From Exophiala sp. HKRS030 (Eukaryota > Ascomycota > Eurotiomycetes > Chaetothyriales > Herpotrichiellaceae), in contig JAHWDD010000006.1 of NCBI GenBank assembly GCA_023897205.1, positions 1,054,001-1,118,000 on the forward strand: 64,000 bases of DNA. Reading direction: 5' to 3'. The position numbers were made by a program, and so were the translations under genes. The notes under the pieces were generated by a model. It was not told the DNA's origin. It saw only the letters and a list, made by a program, of their open reading frames with translations, and ran no database searches. Positions 13,338 through 22,552 of the stretch are shown here, in pieces. Every line of letters starts with the position of its first letter. Position 1 is the stretch's first letter.

Positions 13338-13822
13338 GTGTGCAACTTGGGTTTGACGATGAGTCAATGATACGAAGTAGAGAGAGGTTCAGGAAACTTG
13401 GGAAGGGACGAGTAATTCAGGAGGAGGCGAGACTAAACATATATACGGGTAGAAAAAAATATGCAAAAAAAAATCACCGTTCACGGGTCCATAGGTACGA
13501 GCGTGAATACAGGAATAGACGCGATTAATGAATAGACCGAGGTGCGGCAGCAAGAGTTTGTTATTGAAGGGGTTGAACAATGAAGTCACAGTGGAAATGA
13601 ATTGAATGCTCCAAATGCGGGGGATGAATTGATAACGATAAAAAATGCGCACGTGATTGCTCCGTGAATAGAAGTATCTCGGACTATTGTTTGTCCTCCC
13701 GGCAACGCTAAGCTGAATAGGCGCCAGACGACCTCAGAGTGAGAAAGCGAGATCACCAATATGATCATGGTCAGGATAAGCTTTTCTCGGGCTGATTGAT
13801 CTTTGAATGACTTTTCTTGACA
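13338..13822. promoter_or_regulatory. Divergent promoter region
   Basis: 485 bp between the 5' ends of the macrodomain gene (minus) and the GNAT gene (plus). It must contain both promoters. No specific element was identified. Confidence 0.5.
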
Positions 13823-14359
13823 ATGGATGTGACTGTTCGTGCCGCTGTAGAAACAGATCTGCCACAGGTGCGTCAGATATTCGAGTACTATGTGCTGAAC
13901 ACAGTGGTCTCTTTTCTCGTACAGCGGCCACCGCCGGACTATGTTGCTGCTCGTTTCCACAATGCAAGGGCTCGCCACTTGCCATATCTGGTTGCTGTTG
14001 ACGCAAATGGTGAGGTTGTGGGATACTCATATGCCTCAGCCTTTCGTGGCTTCATGTTGGGCTATGGACATTCTGTGGAAATCAGCCTTTTCTGTGACCC
14101 TAGGCACCAGAACAAGGGGATAGGCAGCAAGATGATCAAGCAGCTCCTCGAAATACTCCGACAGACCAAGCACATTTCCACAGAAGATGGTCACGAAGAC
14201 AACCCTGTTCAATTTGACATCAGAAAGGTCTTTGCGGTCATGGCGATAGATGAAGAGGCCCCTAGCCAGGGACTAGCACTGCGAGATTGGTACAAACGGT
14301 GGGGATTTGAAGAAGTGGGAAGACTCAAAGGTGTAGGATCCAAAAAGGGAAAGATGTGA
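13823..14359 (+). CDS. GNAT acetyltransferase, phosphinothricin-acetyltransferase-like
   Basis: 178-aa acetyl-CoA-dependent N-acetyltransferase in one exon, from ATG 13823. The start VTVRAAVETDLPQVRQIFEY and the segment FLVQRPPPDY resemble the PAT/bar branch. The central strand LPYLVAVDANGEVVGYSYAS leads to the acetyl-CoA loop: in DPRHQNKGIGSKMIKQLLE, the Q-x-x-G-x-G/S pattern of GNAT motif A is present as QNKGIGS. An acidic insert with EDGHEDN precedes the last motif, YKRWGFEEVGRLKGVG. Bacterial homologues acetylate phosphinothricin or methionine derivatives; the fungal substrate is unknown. Confidence 0.85.
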   Translation: MDVTVRAAVETDLPQVRQIFEYYVLNTVVSFLVQRPPPDYVAARFHNARARHLPYLVAVDANGEVVGYSYASAFRGFMLGYGHSVEISLFCDPRHQNKGIGSKMIKQLLEILRQTKHISTEDGHEDNPVQFDIRKVFAVMAIDEEAPSQGLALRDWYKRWGFEEVGRLKGVGSKKGKM

Positions 14360-15114
14360 GAGATTCCCGCAGCTGAAAGCGCCGTTGATGCTAAATAGGG
14401 TCCGTCAGGATTGACACAATGTACCTGGAGTTACATCTACAGTGATTAGGCGATCCTGGAGGCACTCGAAAGGTACTCTATGAGAATCAGTGGGTCGATC
14501 CTTTCTCTGAGAATTTGTCCTACCAGTTCTGCCGCCATGCTCCAGTTTGCAGGATAACATTGGGAAAGTCAGCAATCAGTCCATCCTAAGACCAATGGCA
14601 GATTTTGAAGAGAATTAATACAAACTTGGCAAATGCATTGGATCAAACGTTTCGAAGCCTCTCGCGGTTTGCATCTCGGAATGTCATTACTCAACATCTA
14701 ATTCAACATACTTGAAAAGCGGTGTTGGAGGGCGTCTTGGCGAATGCAGCCCGCGTTGAAATTTATCTGGAGCTTCAGTCTTGACTTTGGCGGGACAAAG
14801 AACAACGATTAAGAGATTTTGATGGCGTGACGGTTAATGAAACATTATGGCCGTTTCTTGGTTGTGTGTGCAAGGCTGAGTCCAACGTGACTGGAGCCTT
14901 GCATTTGTTCCGCAACATGATTGGCTGATCACCACTGCCCATTTCCCCTTTCGGAACCAGGCAATCAAGCCATACGGTTGCCTACATTCTCTTCCAACTA
15001 CTTAAACCCCCTTTGATTTCCTCACTTCCCGCACTACTCTCTCTTCCTCATCTATCACTACTACTACCATCACTACCGGGTAATTTACAGTATCCTCCCA
15101 TATTCAACCTAACC
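14360..15114. other. Intergenic region; weak spliced coding potential on minus strand
   Basis: 755 bp. On the minus strand, short segments such as ISTRAAFAKTPSNTAFQ and MQTARGFETFDPMHLP could be joined by small introns, but no complete gene could be assembled. The right part should be the promoter of the VIT/vWA gene, with a pyrimidine-rich leader before ATG 15115. Confidence 0.4.
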
Positions 15115-18100
15115 ATGTTCGGCTCACACCACCAGAGAACTCGCTTGTGTGGTTGTTGGTATGGATGCTCGCAGCCCAACAGTTCCTATCCACAGAAGCA
15201 ATACCTCCCACAGGTAGAGTTGTCGACGTCCACAAACATTCTGGCCATCACCTCACGAACCACGCTGAAACAAACATTCGTCAATGACCGGAACGAAAAG
15301 CTCGACGAGGTTCGATACACTTTTCCATTGTACGATGGAGTCAGTGTCGTTGAGTTCACCTGCACCGTTGGCTCCAAGACTTTAGTCGGAGTAGTCAAGG
15401 AGAAACAGCAAGCCAAGGTGGAATATGAAGAAGCAGTTGCTCGCGGTGAGACGGCTGGCTTGCTTCAACAACTGCCAGAGGCTTCTGACGTCTTCACCAC
15501 CACAATCGGCAATGTGCCACCTAACGAAAAGATCTACGTTCAGATTGTCTACCTCGGGGAACTCAAGTACGATGCCGAAACAGGAGGCTCACGTTTCACC
15601 ATACCGACTACGATCGCACCACGTTATGGCCCCATCTCGACGGAGTCGGCAGCAGCGTTGAGCAAACCCCTCGCAAACGCCAATAGCGGCATTTCCATCT
15701 TGGTGAATGTCACTCTCGAAAACGGTTCGATTGTACGAGGTCTTCAGTCACCCAGTCACCCAATCGCCGTTACCATGGGCCGTACTAGTCTCATGGAAGA
15801 GGATGCTTTCCAAACCAACAACGCCTCAGCGACCTTGACCCTTGGCACGACCGAGCTCGATAAGGACTTTATCATTGTCGTGCTTGCCAAAGACACCGAG
15901 ACCCCACGTGCACTGCTTGAGACACATCCACGGTTTCCCAATCAGCGTGCAATAATGACGAGCCTGGTGCCTAAATTCGCCCTGCCAAATATCTCCCCCG
16001 AGATTGTATTTGTGGTTGACAGAAGTGGCAGCATGTCCAGCAATATCCCACTCCTCATCTCCGCCTTGAAGATATTCTTACGCTCTCTCCCCGTCGGGGT
16101 CAAGTTCAACATCTGCTCCTTTGGCTCTTCTTTCTCCTTCCTCTTCGACAAGAGCAAAACCTACGACCAATCGAGCTTGAAGACAGCTCTCAAACACATC
16201 GAAGGTTTCAGTGCCAACCTTGGCGGCACGGAGATGTTGAAGCCCGTGGAGAAGACGGTCAAGAACCGATACCCCGATCTTCCTCTCGAAGTGATGGTTT
16301 TGACTGACGGTGAAATATGGAATCAGAACGAGCTATTCGATTTCGTCAACAATACCAAGAACGCTCGGTTCTTCTCCCTAGGTATTGGACACGGTGCGTC
16401 TTCTGCTCTCGTCGAAGGCATCGCACGTGCGGGCAACGGCTTTGCTCAGTTCGTGGGTGACAACGAGAAGATGGACAAGCGCGTCGTTCGTATGCTCAAA
16501 GGAGCCTTGACCCCTCACATTACAGACTACACTCTTGCCGTCACGTACGACCAAGACTCGATCTCTCAAGATGATGACTTTGAGATGGTCGAGGCCATTG
16601 ACAGCTCAACCAAAACTGTTGTTGTGACTGACTTGCAGAAACCCGCGGAGAAAAAGACGATCTCACTTTTCGATGCGAATGCATCGGAAGAACCCACCAA
16701 CCCTCCAACCAGTCGTTATAACGGTCTTCCTGAGGTCCCGGTTCCCAAAGTGTTGCAAGCACCCCATAAGATTCCGGCGTTGTTCCCCTTCAATCGTACC
16801 ACGGCTTATCTCCTGCTCGGTCCAGATGCTCCTCAGAAGATCCCAAAGGCAGTCACACTGCGAGGAACCAGTGAGCACGGACCGCTGGAGCTCGAGATCC
16901 CCGTCCAGGATGTTGGAGTTGGCGAAACAATCCACCAACTCGCCGCGAAGAAGGCAATTCAAGAACTCGAAGAGGATCGTGGCTGGATCACAGAAGTGCA
17001 TGACAGTCATGGTCAGCCTCTCAAGTCCGCCCACGAAGGTAAATGGGATCTCATAGTCGAACGCGAAGCCGTCAGACTAGGTGTCCAGTTCCAGGTCGGC
17101 GGAAAATGGTGCTCATTCATTGCTGTTGAGGCGAACACTGTTGCCGCTGACGATCCAAGTAAAGGTATTGTTGCGTCGCGCGACTCGTCGAGTAAGTCTC
17201 ATCCCATTGAACCCTCTTCGTCGGCGTTCCGGAATCCTGGAGAAGCTCAACTTACTGCCCGCGATTTGGATCTCCCCAATTTGCGCCGTTGCCAATTGCG
17301 TCAGTTGAGTGCCTTGTCGTATGGCACTTCGACATCAACAGTGCCCCCGGGGCGTCATTCCTCTCAGCAGTCGACAACTATACTCTTTAGTGGCGTGTCG
17401 GGAAATTCTGGCTCAAGCTCGTACTCTCCTGGTGTTGCTACACCGCCGGCCGCGTCCAATACAAGAGGAGGCGGTCTTTTTGGTTGTTCGACGGCTTCAG
17501 GGTTCGGTGCAGGCTCACAACCTTGCGTTCCCTCCGCTGGACTGTTTGGCAGCTCTCGCTCTTCGTATCCGACGGGTTCACAACCTGGATCTTTTACACA
17601 GCCTGGAGGACCTTGTTCCGTCACCCTCAGCAATGCATTGTCCGGCGCGAGCTCAGCCACCACCGCTGTAGCGGACGCGAAACCATACGCCGACGAAATG
17701 ATGGCGTCAGCGTCAATGCCTTTACCTGACGAATCGGACAAAGATGAGGACATCCACGAGGACAGCAGCAACCGCAGCGACTTTTCTTCCGGCCTCGATC
17801 ATGCTTCTTCTTTGTTCCCCCGTTCTCGTGCCCAAGACACTGACACAATGGACCCCACAGGTGGTCAAGCGTCTTCTTTCGAGACCATGACTAAGAAGAG
17901 AGCAGCAGGTGGACCCTTGGCCCCTCCTCCCCCGGCACCGCTTCAGCAACAGCAGCAGAGAGCTTCTTCCCCGGGCTCACCGTCACCAGATTTGCGCATG
18001 ACATATTTCTCCGCTTTCTCGCCGTCACCACCAGACACGTCGTCGTCGACACCGCCACCACCACCACCAGCACAAGGGCGCGATCGTGATGTCCGGGCCA

Positions 18101-18639
18101 GACAGACTGCACGCCGATCTACGGGCGGTAAAGCTCCACGAAAGCAACTCGCCTCCAAAGCATGTCGTAGATCCGCTCCGACGACAACCACCCACGATCG
18201 TGTGGCTGACGTCGGTGTCGACATGGATGGAGGAGAAGGAGAACCCGAGGAGACCAACGATGGCAACAACAACACCAAAGACGGCCCCACCTCCCTCGTC
18301 GATCTCGACGACAAGGAAAAGATGCACAAGATCATCGACCTTCAAGAGTTCGATGGATCGTGGACCCTTTCCGAGTCTCTCTTGGCCCTCGTCGGCGGTT
18401 TGACGGTTGACCAGGTCAAGAAGAGTGTGACAACCGTCACAGTCTCCTCCTCGCCAGCGGATGATACGTCCATCGCCACGGCGTTGGCTATCGCATGGCT
18501 CAAGTCAAAGGTCCCAGGAGAAGAGGACGTGTGGGAAATGGTCGTGGAAAAGGCCGAGGGTTGGCTCAAAACCATACTCGGCAGTGATGGAACGACGGAC
18601 AAGGCTCTCATGAGCGAGGTTGCAAAGTTGATCGGATGA
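15115..18639 (+). CDS. VIT and vWA domain protein with GLFG motifs and histone H3 tail-like segment
   Basis: Single-exon protein of 1174 aa starting at ATG 15115; the open frame upstream begins only with a TTG. Residues about 30-160 form a VIT domain and about 296-470 a von Willebrand A domain with an intact MIDAS motif (FVVDRSGSMS, Asp302). The second half is disordered and contains GLFG tetrapeptides at residues 787-790 and 809-812, acidic and proline-rich stretches, and at 995-1022 a segment nearly identical to the histone H3 N-terminal tail (core STGGKAPRKQLASKA). The last ~120 residues (WTLSESLLALVGGL, EDVWEMVVEKAEGWLK) resemble the C-terminal region of PARP4-like VIT/vWA proteins; no PARP domain is present. 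Function is unknown; such proteins are usually considered intracellular scaffolds. Confidence 0.9.
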   Translation: MFGSHHQRTRLCGCWYGCSQPNSSYPQKQYLPQVELSTSTNILAITSRTTLKQTFVNDRNEKLDEVRYTFPLYDGVSVVEFTCTVGSKTLVGVVKEKQQAKVEYEEAVARGETAGLLQQLPEASDVFTTTIGNVPPNEKIYVQIVYLGELKYDAETGGSRFTIPTTIAPRYGPISTESAAALSKPLANANSGISILVNVTLENGSIVRGLQSPSHPIAVTMGRTSLMEEDAFQTNNASATLTLGTTELDKDFIIVVLAKDTETPRALLETHPRFPNQRAIMTSLVPKFALPNISPEIVFVVDRSGSMSSNIPLLISALKIFLRSLPVGVKFNICSFGSSFSFLFDKSKTYDQSSLKTALKHIEGFSANLGGTEMLKPVEKTVKNRYPDLPLEVMVLTDGEIWNQNELFDFVNNTKNARFFSLGIGHGASSALVEGIARAGNGFAQFVGDNEKMDKRVVRMLKGALTPHITDYTLAVTYDQDSISQDDDFEMVEAIDSSTKTVVVTDLQKPAEKKTISLFDANASEEPTNPPTSRYNGLPEVPVPKVLQAPHKIPALFPFNRTTAYLLLGPDAPQKIPKAVTLRGTSEHGPLELEIPVQDVGVGETIHQLAAKKAIQELEEDRGWITEVHDSHGQPLKSAHEGKWDLIVEREAVRLGVQFQVGGKWCSFIAVEANTVAADDPSKGIVASRDSSSKSHPIEPSSSAFRNPGEAQLTARDLDLPNLRRCQLRQLSALSYGTSTSTVPPGRHSSQQSTTILFSGVSGNSGSSSYSPGVATPPAASNTRGGGLFGCSTASGFGAGSQPCVPSAGLFGSSRSSYPTGSQPGSFTQPGGPCSVTLSNALSGASSATTAVADAKPYADEMMASASMPLPDESDKDEDIHEDSSNRSDFSSGLDHASSLFPRSRAQDTDTMDPTGGQASSFETMTKKRAAGGPLAPPPPAPLQQQQQRASSPGSPSPDLRMTYFSAFSPSPPDTSSSTPPPPPPAQGRDRDVRARQTARRSTGGKAPRKQLASKACRRSAPTTTTHDRVADVGVDMDGGEGEPEETNDGNNNTKDGPTSLVDLDDKEKMHKIIDLQEFDGSWTLSESLLALVGGLTVDQVKKSVTTVTVSSSPADDTSIATALAIAWLKSKVPGEEDVWEMVVEKAEGWLKTILGSDGTTDKALMSEVAKLIG

Positions 18640-19306
18640 TTTTTGTCATTCTCGTGCCCATCACGATCAGATCAGATCACGGCTCACGTTTCACGCGTAC
18701 CACGCACCGCTTTAACGCGTAAAGGGTTTGCAAAAGGAGAAGAGCAAAAGAGCAAAAACAAGTTTCATATGATTATCACGAAAAAAAAAGAGTTACGAAT
18801 CACGAATCATTAAATGCACCAAAAATCAGTGTAGCTTTTCGGAGAGTCAGTTCATAGTTTAGTTGATCCATAGACAATGCAATGCAATCAAAATTTGAAG
18901 AAACAAAAAAGATTGTGATGTGGTCTCAATTCTTTCTTCTGTACATTTTCAATTCAAGAAGGCGTGAATCACTTCATCTAGGATCTGATCCAGAAAAACT
19001 CTGCATATCTCATCATGATTAACATCAACCATTACTCCGTATTAAGAATATTCGCTAAACCACTTCCTCAACCTTTTCATGTCCATTCCCCTTTCCGTCG
19101 TTGTTTGTCGCTGAGCCATGATCACAAACCTCGCCTAACAACCTCCATCCCAGGCCGTCGAGTTTAGTACCGAATATACACTGTATCCCAGTCTTGGGTT
19201 CATCACCATTATACGCCAGCCATGCTTAATCAAAGACCTCCCTCCAATTCATTTAGACATGATACATCCCGTTCGCTCCATGCCGATTCTTCTTTTTTTT
19301 CCTTCT
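18640..19306. other. Convergent 3' intergenic region
   Basis: 667 bp between the convergent VIT/vWA and Spo71-like genes. It contains a GATCA tandem (gatcagatcagatca near 18667) and one TACTCCGTA nonamer at 19033. No coding potential. Confidence 0.5.
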
Positions 19307-22300
19307 TCACCTATCAAACCTAAATTCCCCTTCATCGCCCAATTCTTCCACCTCTTGTTCAACGAGTCGTTCGATTTCACTTGCGACACTCAGGACCCAA
19401 CGGTCTCTCTCAGCCCGGCTTCGACACTTGAACACCATACCCCGACCAGGCACACCAAGCTGTCCGACGCGGCGCAATTTGGCTCGTGTTTTTCCGCGAG
19501 TCTTCGCATCGTCACTCGTTAGTTGTCCATCAGAAGAAGACTTGTTATCCTCGGCAGCTGCTGCTGTCCGAAACCAACCTTTCCGTCGGTTCTGCCACAC
19601 GACAAAGCATGTCATCACATCTACGTCGGCGCTTGTCCAACCATCTTCGAGGTAGACTCGTGGCAGACTTGCTATGCCGGGATGGTTGGCGTCAAACGTC
19701 TTGTTCTGGTAGAGCAAGTCATCTTCGACAATCAGGCCACTATAAACATAACAATCTGTCAGATCCACGACCTGTTGCTTCTCCTGGTGTATGTGGCGAA
19801 TCTGTTCACCGGTCCGTTTCCTCAACGAAGCCTGGTAGATCAGAAGCTTGCCACCAGTGAGAATGACATGGCTCCTATGAAAAGCCGCTCGACGTTTGGT
19901 CTTCAGGTATAGCGGACCAGCCATCGTGATGCTTCGGCATACACTGATGCCGCACATGTTGTACAGCTCTGGACTCGCCTGGCTTCGACTGACTTCCCAC
20001 TTCTTCGCAAATTGTCCGATAATTGCTTCGAGTTCTTCGTCGATATTGAGCTCTTCCAGATTAGCTCGTCGGATGGCCTTGTACGTGTCCATCTCAGCCG
20101 CAGCACGCAACTTCCAGTACTTGACCAATTTCTTGAGCCGCGAAATCCATTCATCTCGAGTTTGTTTCGAAAATGCTTGCAGGCGTATCACGAGCCCATT
20201 GTCGAGTAGAATTTCAAAGATACGGTCATCGTCAATCTGCTTAGTCGTACCGTCTTCAGCCCTGGTGTCTGAAACATCCTGATGGAAATCAACATCAGAG
20301 TCGGAACCGGCATCGAGCGTGTCATCAGCTGGGGAAGCGCCCCATTTGATTTTTCGTACTTTCTTCACGTAGCATAAATTGACAAAGCCGTCTGACTCAA
20401 GGATATTAGCGACATTGCGTCGAGCTTCTTCAAGAGCATCTCGGTCATGGCTCTGTATAGACAATCTATCGCCGGACGACAACCAGGAAACGGCACCATC
20501 TTTCAGTTTGTATGGGTCGACATCGAACATTAATGGTGTTTTATCAATAATCTCTTGGGAAGAAGGTATATTCTGACCCCCGATCGTTGCTAACCTAGGA
20601 GGATGTGGTGGTGTGGCCTTTGCAGGCCGATTGAACATCAAGAATTGATCGTGAGTGGAAAAGTACAACCGCTTGAAGAAGGCTTTGCCGAATCGTTGCT
20701 GGACGCCCTTCTGAGACGTGAGACGTATAAGAAATCCTTCGATCGGGCTAGGCTCATCATGAAGCTTGCCTTTTCGTCCGTGAGTGCGGGTAGGGTAATG
20801 CTGTTTGGGTCGTAATTCCAGATCGTGCGATCGTTGCATTGCCATAGAGCCATACATTTTCTGTTCGTTGGCACCATAAACCCACTCCAGTCGGTCGTAT
20901 CTCTTCCAAGCAAGGCCCATATGAGCTGATTCGCTCCAGACTTTTAGTACGCTGGACCATTCAGGGTCACGCTTCAGCATATCCAGGCACTTCGTTATGA
21001 TAGTGCCGGCGACAGCTTTCTCAGCCTCGATGGTCTTAGAGAACGCAGTCTGCTCATCGGTCGCATCAGCCCCAGCAGTCTCCAGACCTTCAAAAGGCCG
21101 CTCAAGCTTCAAGGTGACATCTAGGTCGGGCACATTGATGTGGAGAATGCTGGGTCTCCGCCAACCCAGAGCATCCCGAAGGAACGTGTACCATTCGACA
21201 GAATGTGCCGTCGAACTGGGTCTCATGACGAAAATTCGGGTTCCTTTTTTGTATGGATGCCAAATGACTACCGTTTTGTCCAGGGAGGAATACAGGTTCA
21301 CATTTGTTGTCTTGGGATCGAGCCTGATCTCGTGCGCAGGCTTCTTCTTTGTAGATTCATTGTCAATCTCAGGAATCACTCTAGTTTTGTAGAGTTGCAA
21401 TCTGAAATCATCCGCATCTTGCTTCTTGCTTTTCCTAGCCACAACCATATACTCTCGCCACTTCTCAAGGAGTCTCATCTCGATCTTCTGGCTCTCGTTC
21501 TCGTCAAAATCTTCTGGGGGTGGTTGCATAGTGAGATCACATCTCACCAGCATCCTCTCCATCTTGACGATGGTCCCTTCTTTCAAGGTATTGCGTCTTA
21601 GTCTGTGGTCGGCAACGCGATCTATAGCTCGCTCTGCCTTGCTCTCGATCCGACGTCGACGTTGCTGGACCCCTTCTGTAACCTTGAAGCGAACTCCTGT
21701 AGTGGCACGTTTGAGTTGGTACGAGGTGTCGTCTTTGATGGGTGCCGGCTCATGTTGTTGGAGCGCCTTAGGCCTTGAGGGTCCAGCTTGCGGCTCTAGG
21801 AGAGGTGTCCTAGAGCTCGTCCCCACGCTGGAAATCCGGTGAGACCCTTGTCCATCGGTCTCCTCCTGGTCGGTATCGTGTCTAGATCGACGATCATCTA
21901 GCAGGGACGGCTCTCCGTCAGATGGTGCCGACATCTGCTCCTTCGCGGTTGAAAACGATGTAGGACCTGGAGATGTCACAATCTTGGCAGACCCGTTCGT
22001 CGTCTCGTCTAAACCTTTGTCTTTTCGTACAGGTATAGCTTTCGGGGGTGCTACGTTATCCTCTGATTGTAGCCCATCACCGAGTTCACGTGGAGCTTCA
22101 CTTGTTGCAACGGGCTCGATGGTCGTTGTTTCGAGGACTTCCTCCTCTTCTGGGCTCTCTGGCTCGGCCTCCTCGCCTGCACTCGATGCCTCATCATAAA
22201 CGTCTTCTGGCTGTGGGAAGCCGAATGAAATCCTTGCGGCTGTCGACGGACCATCCAAGCCTGTCATAGATCTGTGAGTCCTATGATGAGGCCCGGTGTC

Positions 22301-22552
22301 GGCAGCGGCATTAAAACTTGCTTTTCTCGAGGAGTAGGTGCTCAATTCCAACCTTCGCCTGTACCATGATTTCCTGTTGCTGTTGAGCCAGCCTTCGGGT
22401 ATCGGTCCGATGAAAAACCTCTGAGAGGTGAGGTGTAGATGCTCAGGGGATGCATGCTTAAGACGATGGGCAGTGTAAGACTGGGGGTCCAAGGTATCGA
22501 AGTCGTGGGTTGTTGTCAAGCTGCCCGCAGGCATGACTCGGGAGGACGACAT
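19307..22552 (-). CDS. Spo71-like PH-domain protein
   Basis: Single-exon protein of 1081 aa. After a disordered N-terminal third rich in Glu, Ser and Pro there is a basic helix (QQRRRRIESKAERAIDRVADH). A conserved block EGTIVKMERMLVRCDLTMQ follows, typical of the fungal sporulation protein family that includes yeast Spo71 (Spo7_2_N-type region). A pleckstrin-homology domain starts at IEGFLIRLTSQKGVQQRFG and continues with KRLYFSTHDQFLMFN. A second PH-like domain near the C-terminus contains GPLYLKTKRRAAFHRSHVILTGGKLLIYQ and ends with ERDRWVLSVASEIERL. In yeast, Spo71 binds membrane lipids and helps size the prospore membrane. In filamentous fungi, where ascospores form differently, the role is not known. 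Assignment rests on domain order and motif resemblance. Confidence 0.75.
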   Translation of the reverse strand: MSSSRVMPAGSLTTTHDFDTLDPQSYTAHRLKHASPEHLHLTSQRFFIGPIPEGWLNSNRKSWYRRRLELSTYSSRKASFNAAADTGPHHRTHRSMTGLDGPSTAARISFGFPQPEDVYDEASSAGEEAEPESPEEEEVLETTTIEPVATSEAPRELGDGLQSEDNVAPPKAIPVRKDKGLDETTNGSAKIVTSPGPTSFSTAKEQMSAPSDGEPSLLDDRRSRHDTDQEETDGQGSHRISSVGTSSRTPLLEPQAGPSRPKALQQHEPAPIKDDTSYQLKRATTGVRFKVTEGVQQRRRRIESKAERAIDRVADHRLRRNTLKEGTIVKMERMLVRCDLTMQPPPEDFDENESQKIEMRLLEKWREYMVVARKSKKQDADDFRLQLYKTRVIPEIDNESTKKKPAHEIRLDPKTTNVNLYSSLDKTVVIWHPYKKGTRIFVMRPSSTAHSVEWYTFLRDALGWRRPSILHINVPDLDVTLKLERPFEGLETAGADATDEQTAFSKTIEAEKAVAGTIITKCLDMLKRDPEWSSVLKVWSESAHMGLAWKRYDRLEWVYGANEQKMYGSMAMQRSHDLELRPKQHYPTRTHGRKGKLHDEPSPIEGFLIRLTSQKGVQQRFGKAFFKRLYFSTHDQFLMFNRPAKATPPHPPRLATIGGQNIPSSQEIIDKTPLMFDVDPYKLKDGAVSWLSSGDRLSIQSHDRDALEEARRNVANILESDGFVNLCYVKKVRKIKWGASPADDTLDAGSDSDVDFHQDVSDTRAEDGTTKQIDDDRIFEILLDNGLVIRLQAFSKQTRDEWISRLKKLVKYWKLRAAAEMDTYKAIRRANLEELNIDEELEAIIGQFAKKWEVSRSQASPELYNMCGISVCRSITMAGPLYLKTKRRAAFHRSHVILTGGKLLIYQASLRKRTGEQIRHIHQEKQQVVDLTDCYVYSGLIVEDDLLYQNKTFDANHPGIASLPRVYLEDGWTSADVDVMTCFVVWQNRRKGWFRTAAAAEDNKSSSDGQLTSDDAKTRGKTRAKLRRVGQLGVPGRGMVFKCRSRAERDRWVLSVASEIERLVEQEVEELGDEGEFRFDR

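Follow-up and report, generated by a model that had tools for sequence, protein, structure and literature searches.

In the fungus Exophiala sp. HKRS030, a segment resembling the N-terminal tail of histone H3 is situated within a protein that is not a histone. The gene for this protein, which possesses a VIT and a vWA domain, was found in the 64,000-nucleotide stretch of contig JAHWDD010000006.1 analysed here (positions 1,054,001 to 1,118,000; GenBank assembly GCA_023897205.1), referred to below as the window; positions are those of the window unless another contig is named. Judged from sequence comparisons, the segment is most likely an old H3-derived peptide retained by selection. The reading we favour, at a probability of about 0.36, is that this peptide occupies a variable slot of the protein and is a ligand for nuclear machinery, most likely for a karyopherin of the Kap123/importin-4 type.

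The H3-like segment

The translation of positions 18097–18180 on the forward strand is ARQTARRSTGGKAPRKQLASKACRRSAP. As stated in the preliminary description of this DNA, the segment comprises residues 995–1022 of the protein and resembles H3 residues 1–30; counted from the ATG at 15115, the protein has 1174 residues. In comparison with the H3 encoded in the same genome, 25 of the 28 aligned residues are the same, the differences being K9R, A25C and K27R, together with the deletion of T3-K4. The stretch surrounding K14, K18 and K23, STGGKAPRKQLASKA, has been kept exactly, again as described. H3 position 22 is a serine in the segment, as it is in both of the genome's own H3 genes. In addition to the three lysines of the core, the arginines R2, R8, R17 and R26 are retained, as are S10, T11 and S28, each with basic residues preceding it.

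It is apparent that this likeness is not fortuitous, as had been claimed. The 345-residue linker was shuffled 20,000 times, and no shuffle reached the alignment score of 129 (best shuffle, 60). A phmmer search of PDB chains with the 28-residue segment returned H3 as the best match (E value 7.3e-10), and H3 chains were still matched with the whole 1174-residue protein as the query (best E value 3e-7). Searched against the genome, the segment matched itself and the two H3 genes (genome searches covered 59.8 Mb in 50 contigs, and counts of places are lower bounds). A degenerate coding pattern for GGKAPRKQLA was observed in eight stretches of genome_contigs, all eight of them in eukaryote-type H3 reading frames. 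These stretches sit in metagenome-assembled genomes, where such frames presumably represent contamination; seven continue as H3, in some cases just as far as the end of the contig or what looks like an intron, and one (L029) departs from H3 immediately after the core. The same pattern was found in no stretch of viral_contigs. Chance similarity is ruled out by the linker shuffles, the PDB E values and the occurrence of the core in H3 frames.

The H3 likeness ends at both borders of the segment, and the histone fold (PF00125) was not found in the whole protein at an E value of 1 or below. The net charge of the segment is +9, while that of the preceding 114 residues is –1 and that of the following 38 residues is –8. 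A strongly basic stretch followed by an acidic one would be consistent with a generic DNA- or RNA-binding patch for which H3 had been just a source of charge. The uncharged STGG, QLA and SAP, however, have been kept equally as well as the charged residues, and we consider such a patch quite improbable.

A scan of positions 17801–18400 for donors of the form GTRNGY yielded none, so that no consensus intron overlaps the segment, although a non-consensus donor would escape the scan. Conservation at the level of residues argues for translation as well, and the possibility that the segment is hidden in an intron was rejected on these two grounds.

Descent from H3 and probable selection

The two H3 genes of the genome, on contigs C2 and C5, are identical in their first 61 encoded residues. 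As read from the DNA, in both genes an intron must interrupt codon G12 behind its first base, a place that the segment crosses with no intron. Among the 25 residue-identical positions, seven codons are identical to those of the C2 gene and six to those of the C5 gene; independent draws from the host codon usage predict 8.4.

Two tests of selection were made, both of which assume descent from an H3 gene with codons like those of the genome's own: identities with the C2 gene amounted to 24, 25 and 9 of 28 at the first, second and third codon positions, respectively, and in neutral simulations 25 residues were kept in none of 3,000 runs at every distance d tested from 0.3 upwards, in a share of 0.0067 at d = 0.2 and in a share of 0.19 at d = 0.1. 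The residues have thus been kept while the synonymous sites have been randomised, and selection is the probable cause. The codon usage log-likelihood ratio of the segment, +4.7, falls within the 5–95% range of the host gene (–2.0 to 17.6); that of the H3 gene tail is –8.9.

The age of the segment may be estimated by reference to a duplicate of the VIT/vWA gene on contig C8. The divergence of the duplicates (C6/C8) would leave 9.4 of the 25 codons the same, and the seven observed against C2 (six against C5) are not significantly fewer (P 0.21). By this comparison the segment would have split from H3 at roughly the depth of the C6/C8 duplication or deeper, saturation barring an upper limit.

The segment is not an assembly chimera, which the preliminary description had named as a concern, and it was not copied from the H3 genes that the genome has today, since the differences are mostly synonymous and the intron carried by both H3 genes is absent from it; its single-copy DNA context excludes these origins as well. 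Of the origin proposed earlier, descent from H3 is supported, whereas a raw captured fragment is unlikely in view of synonymous sites that were randomised while the residues were kept. The designation ‘histone mimic’, proposed at the same time, is an interpretation that is borne out in part, and it is the best class for the segment.

One reservation concerns the donor. If the H3 gene came from another ascomycete whose codons were quite unlike those of the genome's own, some of the silent differences would date from before the capture, which would weaken the argument for selection. A recently inserted, functionless remnant of such a gene would require, by a count made by eye, as few as about five nucleotide changes that are not silent and the loss of six bases, and at d = 0.1 neutral drift does leave 25 of the 28 residues in place in 19% of the simulations. 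Against a remnant, no intron is left where the genome's own H3 genes carry one, and the resemblance to H3 goes no further than the segment on either side. The codon usage of the segment, moreover, fits that of the host gene, and this fit, together with the unusual codons CGA, ACG and CCG, which would be surprising in a histone gene expressed at a high level, speaks against a foreign donor. A remnant of this kind is therefore regarded as improbable.

Other H3-like genes were observed in the genome. A divergent H3 variant gene, the histone family membership of which was confirmed by Pfam, lies on the reverse strand of contig C4 (L045, C4:4806800–4810300) and has the tail TGKSTGGVAPRRNLRSLAKD. 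Three further frames with likeness to the H3 fold (L013 and L016 on C1, L015 on C18) comprise, by eye, a CENP-A-like pair and one divergent H3 variant.

The slot, the linker and the host gene

Five open frames of the window have relatives in the same order within 29 kb of contig C8, including the genes for a GNAT acetyltransferase, the VIT/vWA protein and a SPO71-type protein. The VIT/vWA duplicates are identical at 468 of 675 positions over residues 30–705, and their linkers are hardly alignable. The slot of the C8 copy, which follows a proline-rich stretch and precedes the C-terminal region, has a different content, ALQDYQMQLMLLEQQNKKRFMMRR. The motif in this slot occurs at at least five places in the genome: the C8 gene, a pair of genes on C3, one gene on C1 and an ankyrin-repeat protein on C3. 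This motif, ALQDYQMQLMLLEQQNKKR..., is about 27 residues long and lies in L020, L021, L022, L023 and L010, which comprise three genes that look mutually related, the ankyrin-repeat protein and the VIT/vWA gene of C8. In pairwise comparisons, 18 to 27 of the 27 residues agree, and third codon positions agree at just 10 to 18 of 27. By eye, the paired C3 genes share a C-terminal end with the gene on C1, and we take all three to resemble SomA/Flo8; a LisH domain in the motif-bearing C3 gene was not confirmed by Pfam in the piece tested.

That one slot holds different borrowed motifs in two duplicates, and that the C8 motif recurs in an ankyrin-repeat protein, is what might be expected of an integrated bait, in which the linker would display pieces of essential nuclear proteins (H3, the C8 motif, the Ran tail) to the proteins of an attacking intruder. 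Such an attacker is wholly hypothetical, however; the Pfam scan of the protein found neither a receptor NTPase nor an effector domain, and the strong conservation is unlike that of a fast-changing bait. We attach little probability to this explanation.

Diverged pairs of core genes were observed on C6, C8 and other contigs, and include H3, Ran, CENP-A-like and SomA-like genes in addition to the VIT/vWA block. These pairs look as they would after whole-genome duplication or hybridisation.

The linker contains other stretches reminiscent of nuclear proteins. A genome search with that of the C8 copy (C8:2229640–2233136) matched the C-terminal tail of Ran in two other genes (E values 9.5e-6 and 1.8e-4), and the reverse search gave an E value of 2.8e-4; from shuffles, the P value of the match is approximately 3e-11. 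The two genes were identified as Ran from a C4 exon that matches yeast Gsp1 (E value 1.1e-62) and a C7 gene with the same tail at 91%. In the window copy, the score of the Ran-like stretch was reached in none of 20,000 linker shuffles (P approximately 2e-6 by extrapolation). No Ran gene was found with the 289-residue window linker as the genome query at E values up to 0.1, and the only PDB matches to pieces of that linker were two chains belonging to a plastid protein that is unrelated (E values 4.4 and 8.1). FG motifs number three in the window linker, five in the whole protein and nine in the C8 linker. It thus seems that the linker collects peptides of nuclear proteins, a tendency that is significant in C8 and, apart from H3, weak in the window copy.

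The host gene is a single open frame, 15013–18639 on the forward strand, of 1208 codons counted from the first listed start. The VIT and vWA domains are present in that order, both above the curated Pfam cut-offs, and DRSGS, GGTEM and LTDGE in the vWA domain are presumably as expected for its metal site. PARP4 is the closest solved relative of the whole protein (PDB chains, E value 2.5e-30). In an AlphaFold single-sequence model, the region from residue 670 to residue 1086 has no listed element; with a mean pLDDT of 33, the model was too poor and was left unused. No known fold was found by sequence for the C-terminal region, the sole PDB match of which had an E value of 1.6. The VIT family is present at at least two places in the genome, namely this gene and the one on C8, and no relatives were found in viral_contigs with the whole protein as query. 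An Rfam scan of 14000–19500 and a tRNA scan with bacterial settings gave no match. Coordinates of the features are listed in Table 1.

Table 1. Features of the VIT/vWA gene and its neighbours, in window coordinates
Feature	Position	Strand	Remarks
Histone H3 N-terminal tail segment	18097..18180	+	Residues 995-1022; H3 1-30 minus T3-K4
VIT/vWA gene	15115..18639	+	1174 codons from ATG 15115; open frame; start picked by eye
VIT domain PF08487	15217..15552	+	Pfam E 9.4e-35; residues 69-180 of the 15013 frame
vWA domain PF13768 (VWA_3)	16000..16452	+	Pfam E 7.1e-28; DRSGS, GGTEM and LTDGE present
Low-complexity linker	17137..18294	+	Limits by eye; aligns poorly with C8 duplicate
FG motif, GGGLFG	17467..17484	+	Linker motif count
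FG motif, TASGFG	17491..17508	+	Linker motif count
FG motif, SAGLFG	17533..17550	+	Linker motif count
Ran C-terminal-tail-like stretch, YADEMMASASMPLPDESDKD	17686..17745	+	12/20 residues; score 64
C-terminal region common with C8 duplicate	18319..18636	+	48/95 aligned residues identical in residues 1061-1174
GNAT acetyltransferase gene, neighbour	13817..14359	+	PF00583 E 3e-11; colinear on C8, 58% identity
SPO71-type PH-domain protein, neighbour	19307..22552	-	PF15404, PF23207; colinear on C8

Candidate ligand roles and related systems

In the reading that we favour, the slot in the VIT/vWA linker would long ago have acquired the coding sequence of the first 30 residues of H3, and selection would have retained the resulting peptide. 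Expressed as part of a presumably disordered linker, the peptide would imitate the H3 tail toward nuclear machinery that is independent of a free N-terminus and of K4, K9 and K27. An internal segment is inaccessible to readers that require a free H3 N-terminus, and the absence of K4, K9 and K27 excludes chromodomain-type reading. The face that remains, consisting of K14, K18, K23 and the arginines, would fit either karyopherins or acetyltransferases with bromodomains. Kap123/importin-4 reads H3 as an import signal via K14 and K23, and the context of both lysines is intact in the segment, for which a karyopherin of this kind would be the most likely binder. The PDB matches of the 28 residues include an H3 peptide chain, 5ve8_C, which we take to be that of the Kap123 complex. 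Taken with its FG motifs and Ran-like stretch, the VIT/vWA protein would then be carried by the nuclear transport system or attach to it, and may be a histone mimic made by the cell itself.

The segment might instead be a decoy or scaffold substrate of H3 acetylation, on which Gcn5/SAGA or NuA3-type enzymes would act at K14, K18 or K23 and to which bromodomains, or 14-3-3 proteins via S10 or S28, would then bind. The exact core around the three lysines, the retention of S10, T11 and S28 after basic residues, the preservation of charge in K9R and K27R, and an internal position that excludes readers of a free N-terminus are all consistent with this proposal. The lysine pattern emphasised in the preliminary description, with acetylation sites kept and methylation sites lost, was described correctly, but it carries little weight, as the loss of exactly K4, K9 and K27 among six lysines has a probability of 1 in 20 by chance. 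Nor does the neighbouring GNAT gene provide support, since it also adjoins the C8 copy, which lacks the H3 segment; its candidacy as the writer was rejected for this reason. Transport is preferred because of the FG and Ran-like stretches, and acetylation, although doubtful, is the most credible of the alternatives.

Several observations weigh against the transport reading. A plain import signal would not need an exact 15-residue core, which is the best argument for acetylation. Three linker FG motifs are far below nucleoporin numbers. With the 36-residue Ran-like piece of the window as genome query, no Ran gene was found at E values up to 10, and in PDB chains the C8 linker matched Gsp1 first at an E value of 0.082, close to that of an unrelated RING protein (0.097). 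The C8 duplicate is devoid of the H3 segment, and the motif in its slot is not from a known transport protein. In that copy (L010), furthermore, the VIT/vWA half and the half with the Ran-like stretch, the slot and the C-terminal region are in different open frames that overlap by 43 nt, and C8 counts less as evidence for the family because its halves sit in two frames. Five GT..AG stretches are of a length fitting an intron that would join the frames, but consensus donors and branch sites are missing from all five, and a 63-base intron was ruled out, as it leaves the frame unchanged. The C8 copy may have lost its integrity as a gene, may be wrongly assembled at this place or may contain an unusual intron.

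The presence of nearly the whole H3 tail in a non-histone protein of the cell's own amounts to a natural experiment, in which the roles of K14, K18 and K23 are set apart from those of K4, K9 and K27. The differing motif in the duplicate's slot suggests that such linkers can swap ligand peptides by taking up pieces of conserved proteins. More broadly, and with considerably more doubt than attaches to the transport reading, fungal VIT/vWA linkers might display changeable nuclear peptides kept by selection (the Ran tail, FG motifs, and a slot with the H3 tail or a motif common to four other genes), and so constitute a group of mimics, made by the cell itself, that connect to nuclear transport or chromatin; the H3 copy, having lost its main methylation sites, would retain the acetylation and import face only.

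Several known systems offer partial parallels. PARP4, the vault ADP-ribosyltransferase, and the inter-alpha-trypsin inhibitor heavy chains share the combination of VIT and vWA; in contrast to PARP4, no ADP-ribosyltransferase or BRCT domain was found in the fungal protein, in which Pfam shows just VIT and vWA, and which has its own linker and C-terminal region. The C8 copy aligns with the tail of the genome's own Ran (Gsp1) as ALLPP--PVDQDLLATYEKEMAEAACMALPDEDEDD, but Pfam found no G domain in the VIT/vWA protein, and the likeness is weaker in the window copy. GLFG-like motifs in a P/S/G-rich linker recall the FG nucleoporins, although just three FG are present in the linker and no nucleoporin domain was found by Pfam. 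Plant immune receptors with integrated decoys resemble the present case in that fragments of other proteins occupy a slot whose content varies from one duplicate to another; the NACHT/NB-ARC-type receptor architecture was not found in the Pfam scan.

With histone H3 itself, the segment has in common the residues set out above, including the serine at position 22. It differs in being internal to a 1174-residue protein and in being without the histone fold, T3-K4, K9, K27 or an intron. Most of the histone mimics known so far span just a few residues, and pathogens are the main source of them; short H3-like peptides have reportedly been recognised in influenza NS1, SARS-CoV-2 ORF8 and the G9a methylation motif. 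The segment differs from these in its length of about 28 residues, in belonging to a cellular fungal protein and in the removal of the main methylation sites, and it shares with them an H3-tail sequence, beyond what chance would produce, within a protein that is not a histone.

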